A stretch of DNA of 64,000 nucleotides, from assembly GCA_003139795.1 (NCBI GenBank), contig PLGM01000101.1, positions 7,971 through 71,970 on the forward strand. Direction: 5' to 3'. This document shows, piece by piece, positions 326-17,761 of this stretch. Position 1 is the first letter of the stretch. Every line of letters starts with the position of its first letter. Origin of the DNA: Acidobacteriaceae bacterium (GTDB lineage: Bacteria > Acidobacteriota > Terriglobia > Terriglobales > Acidobacteriaceae). The translations under genes were made by a program, and so were the position numbers. The notes under the pieces are model-generated. The model saw only the letters and a list, made by a program, of their open reading frames with translations, ran no database searches and had not been told where the DNA came from.

Positions 326-1633
326 ATGGCGACACTTCTATCGATGTACGGATACGACAACGACGACGATTTTGTCGAATCTGGGCCCGTTTCCGGGCCG
401 ACCCACAAGCCCCAGACCATCGCGGCACTTGATGTGCGTCAGTCAATTCTCGAGGATATTGCGCTAAAGACTCTCTATCTGTCCGGTTCGCTCTCCGTTC
501 TTGAGCTATCCAACAGGACCCAGCTCAGCTACGAAGTGGCAAACGAACTGTTTTGCAAGCTGCGCGCGGAATTGCTCTGCCAGGTCACTGGAATGACCGG
601 CACGGTCCCTCAGATCGCCATCACATCTCAGGGCAGATCGCGAGCTGTGGACCTTCTCGCCCAGAGCCATTATTCCGGCGCTGCGCCAGTATCGTTTGAG
701 AGCTACGCTGAGCAGACCAGGAAACAGAGCGTCAAGAAGGTGGAGGTGCACGCCGCCCATGTCAAGCGGGCATTTTCCCATCTGGTCATCGAAAATGAGA
801 TGTTACGGCAGCTCGGAACGGCACTCAACTCCGGTAGCTCCGTTTTTCTCTATGGGCCGCCTGGAACTGGAAAGACGACCGTGGCCGAAGGGCTATCGCG
901 GGTGCTCGCCGACGATGAGGTTTGGATCCCGTACGCGGTGGAAGTGGATGGTCAGATCATTACGATTTACGATCCGTCAATCCACAAGCGTGTACCGGAG
1001 TCGGAGCCCAAAAACCACGACTCCCGCTGGGTGCTCTGCCATCGCCCCGCGGTTTTGGTCGGCGGAGAGTTGACGGCCGAGATGCTGGACTTGCAATTCA
1101 ACCCGACTACAAAATTCTATGTCGCCCCCGCGCAGATGAAAGCCAATAACGGCGTCCTGATCATCGATGATTTCGGACGGCAGAGAATTCGCCCGGACGA
1201 ACTGCTGAACCGCTGGGTCGTTCCCCTCGATCGGAGGATCGATTTTCTGACTCTGGCAGGAGGCAAGAAGATCGAGGTCCCGTTCGAAATGCTGATCGTA
1301 TTTGCGTCCAATATGGATCCGGCCGAACTGGTGGATCCCGCCTTCCTGCGAAGGATTCAAACCAAGATCAGAATCGGCGAAGTTTCAGACGACAATTTCA
1401 ATGAAATCTTCTGCCGGGTTGCCGCTCAGAATCAAGTCCCCTTTGACATCGGCATACCCAACGATCTGATCGATTTCATTCACGTGACCCTGAAGCAAGA
1501 GTTGCGATCGTGCTATCCGCGGGATATTGTGAACCAGGTCTGCTGGGCCGCGCAATATGAAGGCAGAAAGCCGTATCTCGATCGCTCGGCCTTGAAACAG
1601 GCAGTTGAGGCTTACTTTCTGGCAAAGTCCTAG
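326..1633 (+). CDS. AAA-family ATPase (MoxR-like) with N-terminal helical/winged-helix-like region
   Basis: ORF of 435 aa; Walker A GPPGTGKTT, Walker B-like VLIIDDFG, sensor-like FASNMDP. Confidence 0.85.
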   Translation: MATLLSMYGYDNDDDFVESGPVSGPTHKPQTIAALDVRQSILEDIALKTLYLSGSLSVLELSNRTQLSYEVANELFCKLRAELLCQVTGMTGTVPQIAITSQGRSRAVDLLAQSHYSGAAPVSFESYAEQTRKQSVKKVEVHAAHVKRAFSHLVIENEMLRQLGTALNSGSSVFLYGPPGTGKTTVAEGLSRVLADDEVWIPYAVEVDGQIITIYDPSIHKRVPESEPKNHDSRWVLCHRPAVLVGGELTAEMLDLQFNPTTKFYVAPAQMKANNGVLIIDDFGRQRIRPDELLNRWVVPLDRRIDFLTLAGGKKIEVPFEMLIVFASNMDPAELVDPAFLRRIQTKIRIGEVSDDNFNEIFCRVAAQNQVPFDIGIPNDLIDFIHVTLKQELRSCYPRDIVNQVCWAAQYEGRKPYLDRSALKQAVEAYFLAKS

Positions 1634-1655
1634 AGGCCCTCGATGGAGCCGCCTC

Positions 1656-2030
1656 TAGTACCGCGACCGTGTGATTGTGAAATGTCGACGATGAGGATCT
1701 GGGTGGCCCCGGTCTCGTCCGCCGCGGCGGACTGCGGCGGAAGACCTGGGAGACGACATATCCACACGGTCGCGGTCCTGGGAGTCTGTCGGGAATAGGT
1801 TTTTCATCCTTTAGAATCAATAACTTACGAATTCTACATTTTACGTAAGCAGTTGATTCTAAATGGGTTAGGCTGCGTAAATCTCCTGTTTCCGACACAC
1901 TCCAAGTACCGCGACCGTGTGGTTGTGAAATGTCGACGATTAGGATCTGGGTGGCTCCAGGTCTTCCGCCGTGGCGGACCGCGGCGGAAGACCTGGGAGA
2001 CGACATATCCACACGGTCGCGGTACTGGAA
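1656..2030. repeat. Composite inverted-repeat element: two ~120-130 bp near-identical copies flanking a third inverted repeat
   Basis: Copy A ~1658-1776 and copy B 1901-2029 share CCGCGACCGTGTG...CACACGGTCGCGG termini and an internal palindrome; the spacer 1781-1903 has ends GGAGTCTGTCGG/CCGACACACTCC and an internal TTTAGAATCAA...TTGATTCTAAA. Confidence 0.85.
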
Positions 2031-2131: not shown

Positions 2132-3484
2132 TCAGGCCAGCTTCATTGCATCCGGGTCCCAGTGGACGATTGTTCCGCGGTCGATGCTGAGATTGCTCAG
2201 CAGTGCGGCTCCGGCTGCCCGGTAACCGAAAACAGCATCTTCCACCACCGGCTTGCGGGATCGCACCGCTTCAAAGAAATTTCTGAAGTGGTCGTAGCTG
2301 TCGACATATCCGTCCGGCGCTACATACTTCTCGTATCCCACCGGCGGCTCTCCTTCGGGGTGCGGGCGCGGATACTTCTTCCGGTAGTCCTCCAGAATGA
2401 GCTTTTGCATCGCTTCAGGGAAGGTCTCAATCATCAATCCGGGTTCCTTCTCGCGCGGCACGCGGTTGACGCTCACTGAGTTGCCGGCGATCTCCATTGT
2501 GCCTTCCGAACCCGTAAAGATCAGCCCTTCGCTCTCCTCGCCGCCGTCCACAAAGTTCACGCGGAGGCTCAGGTTGAATCCCTCCCGATAGTCGAACAGA
2601 CCCAGCATCACGTCCGGCACGTCCCTGCCGTCTTTCCAGAAGCGCAGTGCTCCGGTGGCCATGCCCCGCGTGGGCCCGTTTGACCCGGTAATGAAGTGTG
2701 TTCCGCTGAACAGATGCACAAACAGGTCGCCGGCCACGCCGCTTCCGTAAGCCTTCCACTTGCGCCACTGGAAGAAGTGTTCGGCATTGAAGGGAATCTT
2801 CGGCGCGGTGCCCAAAAAACGCGGCCAGTCGCAGGTCTCCGTCGAGGCATCCGGCGGAACCGTGTAGCTCCAGGCGCCCGTGGCCGAATTGCGGTCCCAG
2901 CGCGCGGTCACCATGTTGAGCTGGCCGATGGCCCCCGCGGCGAGGAGTTCTTTCGCCTTGGCATAAATTACCGAGCTCACGCGCTGGCTGCCGATCTGGA
3001 GAATGCGTCCAGTTGAGTGCGCGGTCTCGATCATCGCCGGCCCATCCGCGTACAAATGGATCATCGGCTTCTCGCAATACACATCCTTGCCGGCCTTCAT
3101 GGCGTCCACCGAGGCTTGCTTGTGCCAATGATCGGGCGTGCCGATGATGACCGCGTCGATGTCCTTGCGCGCCAGAATCTCGCCGTAGTCGCGCGTGGTG
3201 AAGGTGTCCGTGCCCCAGATCTCCTTGCTGTGGTCCAGTCGGCCGTTGTAGCAGTCGGCCACGGCCACCAGCTTTACGCCCGGAACCTGCACCGCAACCT
3301 TGGTATCAAACTGCCCCTGGCCCCCCGCGCCGATCAGCGCGATCTGAATGTTGTCGTTGGCCGAGACCGGCCTGGCCGGCTCGTTTTGAACTGCGGCCAA
3401 CGCATGCAGCCTGGCTCCCAGCAACGTCCCCGCCGATGCCGCGCCCGCCACCCTGAGAAAATTCCTGCGATTCAGTTCGTTCAC
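2132..3484 (-). CDS. Gfo/Idh/MocA family oxidoreductase with Tat-type signal
   Basis: NELNRRNFLRVAGAASAG Tat-like N-terminus, Rossmann region IALIGAGGQGQ, EKPM motif; GTG start proposed inside the longer ORF. Confidence 0.85.
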   Translation of the reverse strand: MNELNRRNFLRVAGAASAGTLLGARLHALAAVQNEPARPVSANDNIQIALIGAGGQGQFDTKVAVQVPGVKLVAVADCYNGRLDHSKEIWGTDTFTTRDYGEILARKDIDAVIIGTPDHWHKQASVDAMKAGKDVYCEKPMIHLYADGPAMIETAHSTGRILQIGSQRVSSVIYAKAKELLAAGAIGQLNMVTARWDRNSATGAWSYTVPPDASTETCDWPRFLGTAPKIPFNAEHFFQWRKWKAYGSGVAGDLFVHLFSGTHFITGSNGPTRGMATGALRFWKDGRDVPDVMLGLFDYREGFNLSLRVNFVDGGEESEGLIFTGSEGTMEIAGNSVSVNRVPREKEPGLMIETFPEAMQKLILEDYRKKYPRPHPEGEPPVGYEKYVAPDGYVDSYDHFRNFFEAVRSRKPVVEDAVFGYRAAGAALLSNLSIDRGTIVHWDPDAMKLA

Positions 3485-17535: not shown

Positions 17536-17654
17536 GGAACTCACTCTACCATGACTCAGGTTGCCATGAGCCAAATTGATGCGTTTGCTTCACTGATGAC
17601 CGAACTTTCCGCCGTGAAAGCAACCGTGCCAGCGGATGTGGGTTAGCCGGGTGC

Positions 17655-17688
17655 CTCAGGTCTCGTACGCCGCGGCGGAAGACCTGGG
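17655..17688. repeat. CCAGGTCTC/GAGACCTGG palindrome family copy (GCCGCGGC loop variant)
   Basis: CCTCAGGTCTCGTACGCCGCGGCGGAAGACCTGGG. Confidence 0.8.
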
Positions 17689-17761
17689 AGGGCTAGCACC
17701 GCAGGCTGGCGCGGGACACCAGAACTCTCCTGGCGCGCAAGCACCGCCCCACCGCAGGTGG

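Follow-up and report, generated by a model that had tools for sequence, protein, structure and literature searches.

Three adjoining miniature elements with IS630-like and IS1182-like ends between convergent genes of an acidobacterial genome

A cluster of palindromes between two convergent genes is very probably an array of three gene-less MITEs, placed end to end, of which the outer two (A and B) derive from IS630 and the middle one (M) from IS1182. The window, by which we mean the whole 64-kb stretch of DNA that was analysed, lies on contig C337, in a 6.34-Mb genome of 412 contigs (the own genome, below). The array occupies positions 1655-2028 and reads CTAG-A (119 bp)-CTGG-M (121 bp)-CAAG-B (118 bp)-CTGG, a series of three adjoining inverted-repeat units (Table 1). 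All three have bodies of 118-121 bp and terminal inverted repeats (TIRs), and none contains a transposase gene, as is typical of MITEs. When the element ends were sought across the 64-kb window, this array was the sole match.

Table 1. Features of the array and its flanking genes (window coordinates).
Feature	Position	Strand	Basis
CTAG, left edge of unit A	1655..1658	.	sequence and copy comparison
MITE A, IS630-derived (B1 family), TIR TACCGCGACCGTGTG / CACACGGTCGCGGTC	1659..1777	+	repeat search, copy comparison
CTGG, decayed CTAG common to A and M	1778..1781	.	sequence
MITE M, IS1182-derived, TIR GAGTCTGTCGG / CCGACACACTC, inner arms 1810-1829 / 1844-1863	1782..1902	+	
CAAG, decayed CTAG common to M and B	1903..1906	.	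sequence
MITE B, IS630-derived (B1 family), orientation as A	1907..2024	+	repeat search, copy comparison
Core hairpin of B (CCAGGTCTTCCGCCGTGG...CCGCGGCGGAAGACCTGG), elsewhere also dispersed alone (own and related genomes)	1957..1996	.	
CTGG, decayed CTAG, right edge of B	2025..2028	.	sequence
Left-flank gene for an AAA ATPase, facing gene 2132-3484 (convergent)	326..1633	+	
Right-flank gene for a Gfo/Idh/MocA-type oxidoreductase that has a Tat signal	2132..3484	-	synteny

An earlier note on this DNA had described two near-identical copies separated by a different inverted repeat, and our repeat search agrees. A and B align as direct repeats (1657-1710 with 1905-1958, and 1715-1781 with 1962-2028, each 94%), both have terminal repeats (1657-1673/1763-1779 in A, 1905-1927/2004-2026 in B), B has an inner palindrome (1957-1974/1979-1996, 94%), and the DNA between the copies is M, whose nested arms were recovered. 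The units that the note delimited are present; their exact extents shift to those of Table 1, with CTAG-type spacers between them. The longer terminal match proposed for B (TCCAaGTACC/GGTACTGGA) is in part a decayed CTAG site and not element sequence. The note's picture of one composite of nested repeats does not hold: the units are adjacent, each has its own palindrome, and they belong to separate families that are also found alone at unrelated sites. Its proposal of a non-autonomous mobile element is supported by the dispersal of both families, by their terminal repeats of IS type and by candidate transposases of parent elements.

Terminal sequences suggest that the parents of A and B are likely IS630-family elements of the genus, and the parent of M an IS1182-family element. 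A 1.2-kb IS630 element in a related genome (G020:C77, L225) carries A/B-type ends, CTAGTACTATGACCGTGTGGTTGAGTAAT / CTAGTACTGTGACCGCATG, on both sides. Its transposase, in two overlapping frames, matches DDE_3 and HTH_32 (Pfam) and, above the cut-off, IS630 (NCBIfam). Further IS630 relatives have B1-type ends on both sides (G019:C308, L248) or on one side (G037:C197, L247). A and B resemble the IS630 family (Tc1/mariner-like) and its derived MITEs in these ends and in their CTAG flanks, and differ in being ~118 bp long and gene-less and in having a core hairpin that is not the same in every copy; ~29 terminal bases are all that A/B and IS630 have in common. That the transposase gene is divided between two overlapping frames in both L225 and L247, from two genomes, could point to programmed frameshifting instead of decay.

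In the own genome we found no intact IS630 carrying B1-type ends, but multi-copy elements may be hidden in an assembly of 412 contigs, in which repeats collapse. Two IS630 genes of that genome (C52, C311) were rejected as parents of A and B, since the nearest several hundred bases to the left and right of each contain no CTAG. The open reading frames next to several B1-type ends (C122, C297) turned out to be those of ordinary genes that neighbour a related, longer MITE-like repeat, and a scan of viral contigs returned no relative of the IS630 transposase.

For M, the closest candidate is a 1.7-kb IS1182 element in G020 (C272), whose ends, CTAGGAGCGTGTCGGAAATAGATT / CTAAGAGCGCGTCGGG, match those of M and which scores 302.7 bits with the IS1182 model (cut-off 270). 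The M TIR is shared with the ends of the IS1182 loci L187 and L184, and the C25 copy of M agrees with 22 of the first 24 bases of the G020 IS1182, CTAG included. Such similarity covers ~24 terminal bases, which are all that the 121-bp, gene-less M and IS1182 have in common. Contig C254 of the own genome holds a shortened IS1182 with M-like ends; it represents an intermediate step toward M, and is the kind of deletion product that can yield a MITE. Two further copies of M were found in the own genome and relatives of M in G020, G031, G004 and G011. In G020, six copies that we compared do not differ in a single letter while their six flanks are all different, and M has thus spread recently in that genome. 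We conclude that A, M and B are new copies and that their MITE families are probably not yet named but do not form a new kind; what is mildly novel is their stacking at a shared CTAG.

CTAG flanks most copies of these elements on both sides; most A/B copies lie between two such sites or one-base variants, and M has CTAG on either side in G020, G031 and contig C9 of the own genome. Because the site is palindromic, a CTAG at each edge may stem either from a duplicated target or from the element ends themselves. The single CTAG at shared junctions favours a target origin. Related systems offer precedents. ISY100, of the IS630 family, duplicates TA in vitro (PMC2170065), and an IS630-based transposon prefers the TA of CTAG, according to the title of a study cited there (Tenzen and Ohtsubo 1991, in PMC2170065). 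The 100-bp MITEPsy1 of Pseudomonas syringae is reported to duplicate CTAG or YTAA on insertion (PMC3189936). It is likewise a short MITE, but that paper assigns it to ISPsy2, whose placement in the IS5 family carries a question mark, and its ends are unrelated to those of A, B and M. In titles and abstracts, we found no description of IS1182 with CTAG or of MITEs in Acidobacteria.

Junctions of the same kind recur elsewhere. Among the loci fetched we typed 16 distinct junctions with a shared CTAG, a few of them doubtful by eye. An IS630-type MITE and an M-type end have one CTAG in common in G031 (C208), as do an IS630 end and an M-like end in G020 (C5). A/B-type elements meet a second IS630-type MITE family at one CTAG in own contig C213 and in G027:C167, and IS1182 or M ends share CTAG with a further element, ending in CTAG-AGCCTGTTATTAAC, in G020 and own contig C165. 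Since unrelated elements with one common CTAG recur in this way, the most likely course is that earlier insertions supplied the CTAG sites into which further elements of the composite then went. We also noticed a repeated end, CTAG-AGCCTGTTATTAACTTTG, at many sites (1354-1402 of L077 in own contig C165; L137, L145, L147, L149, L150 and L191 in G020), where the CTAG is often common with IS1182 or M ends.

A mechanism consistent with these junctions can be outlined. An IS630-family (Tc1/mariner-like) transposase would act in trans on A and B and insert them at the TA of CTAG, and an IS1182-family transposase, which would also use CTAG, would do so for M. If every insertion duplicates its target and leaves CTAG on either side, a resident element would offer fresh targets at its edges. 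Where CTAG is scarce in the genome, later elements of either family would pile up at those edges. In the window CTAG is indeed scarce, at 23 occurrences (about one per 2.8 kb) against 69 expected from a Markov estimate based on tri- and dinucleotides. In the fetched loci, 7 of 37 B1-type ends of the own genome adjoin another typed end, two of the seven being in the window. With uniform insertion over CTAG sites we would expect a few per cent of abutting ends, by our own estimate from CTAG density and tens of ends. The excess is suggestive, in loci that were fetched by similarity, and tolerance of insertions in intergenic DNA only could explain much of it. More tentatively, and with somewhat less than even confidence, we propose that several unrelated families (more than one IS630 subgroup, IS1182 and the CTAG-AGCCTGTTATTAAC element) target scarce CTAG, their edges serving as renewable landing pads on which mixed intergenic arrays grow while genes are spared. 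The shared CTAG provides an easily testable rule for the stacking of unrelated miniature elements, and known transposon families would explain the compound palindromes of these soil acidobacterial genomes.

One variant concerns only the placement of M. IS1272, which belongs to the IS1182 family, takes the place of inverted repeats at its target and makes no duplication (PMC5678879), and M has palindromic elements on both sides. IS1182 could thus have placed M by the same stem-loop replacement rather than by target duplication, but we consider this unlikely. CTAG-M-CTAG in G020, G031 and own contig C9 does not resemble the outcome of a sequence-blind target, unless CTAG belongs to the ends; the argument is not decisive.

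The array could instead be a functional structured RNA or a bidirectional terminator, selected between convergent genes, which is an explanation that we regard as very unlikely. Its location fits, and the folds are strong: B has a z of -10.0, with none of 200 shuffles equally good, and M a z of -6.2, with 1 of 200. Both are stable far beyond chance. The core stem, moreover, remains paired in 95.7% of cells over 30 IS630-type copies, some of which have two-sided changes at three pairs. Such pairing can be explained, without function, by the kinship of the copies and palindrome correction, and symmetric change is also expected from transposase recognition or template-switch repair of palindromes. 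No Rfam match came near its gathering score, the only matches being sub-threshold ones to microRNAs, and the array shows neither a promoter-like site nor an excess of terminator-like sites.

The history of the gap also argues against selection for an RNA. The ATPase and oxidoreductase genes converge in nine genomes, the own included, and the same gap in relatives lacks the array. It measures 24 bp in G041 and G040 (empty sites of the sort that the earlier note had proposed to look for), 57 bp in G089 and ~500 bp here. The array flanks do not align to the empty gaps of the relatives at the level of single bases, and no pre-insertion site exact to the base was found. In G037 another IS630-type MITE occupies the gap, with CTAG on one side and a decayed CTAG on the other. 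Because the relatives' gaps are short or contain another MITE, the array is an addition to a gap that tolerates insertions. It is probably old, its leftmost CTAG being the only one undecayed. If its hairpins helped to terminate the two genes, that would be a by-product of the MITE array, and a palindrome cluster in such a convergent gap is not necessarily a regulatory RNA or a REPIN.

The copies of A and B found elsewhere bear on another alternative, a local tandem duplication of one palindrome into which M was inserted. With 93% similarity and a common orientation, A and B look as a duplication would leave them. A copy on contig C409, however, is 94% and 96% like A and B, closer to each than they are to one another, so that A and B are separate insertions; each family also occurs alone at unrelated sites. 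We therefore hold a local origin to be highly improbable. In the own genome, copies like A/B over most of their length lie at ~9 places, the two in the window included, besides many copies of the core hairpin only. A degenerate pattern with at most one mismatch finds 36 A/B-type ends there, against three for the reversed control. Related ends occur in 33 of 59 genomes of the genus, some single hits being due to chance. These counts rest on sequence searches. The recurrence of both units in the own genome and in relatives answers the earlier note's concern that they might have no other copies. Among named records, the degenerate form of this end is found almost exclusively in acidobacterial MAGs, many of them labelled bog, fen or palsa; one MAG is labelled Burkholderiales.

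Some A/B copies are mosaics. In L056, L048 and L045 (own contigs C331, C317 and C213) the two halves come from different subfamilies, which suggests recombination between MITEs at the core hairpin. In G031, about thirty ends of the form CTAGGTCCGTGACCGGATG (loci L226-L235) belong to one IS630-type MITE family. The copies that we read often have a stretch of N in their interior, as though the assembler could not pass the hairpin.

We give almost no weight to the REPIN-like origin that the earlier note had also raised, in which a RAYT (Y1) transposase spreads REP-type repeats: the units are short and palindromic, like the dispersed extragenic palindromes of such systems (PMC3733652), RAYT-type Y1 transposases are present in the own genome and its relatives, and the inner hairpin of B is also solitary and lies near two Y1 genes in G040 (L331, L333), but 0 of 18 Y1-transposase loci have termini of the A/B or M type, the core is absent from the three such loci of the own genome, the termini are CTAG-flanked inverted repeats common to IS630 and IS1182 DDE elements, and known REPs bear GTAG or CGTC at one end (PMC3733652), a tag that is absent here, where most copies have CTAG at both.

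The core hairpin itself varies between copies in its loop, which is CGATTTTG-like or CCGCCGTGGCGGACCGCGGCGG. It occurs alone in the own genome, G040 and G011. One solitary example, at 17648-17691 of the window (GGTGCCTCAGGTCT...AGACCTGGGA), ends near CTAG and is without MITE termini.
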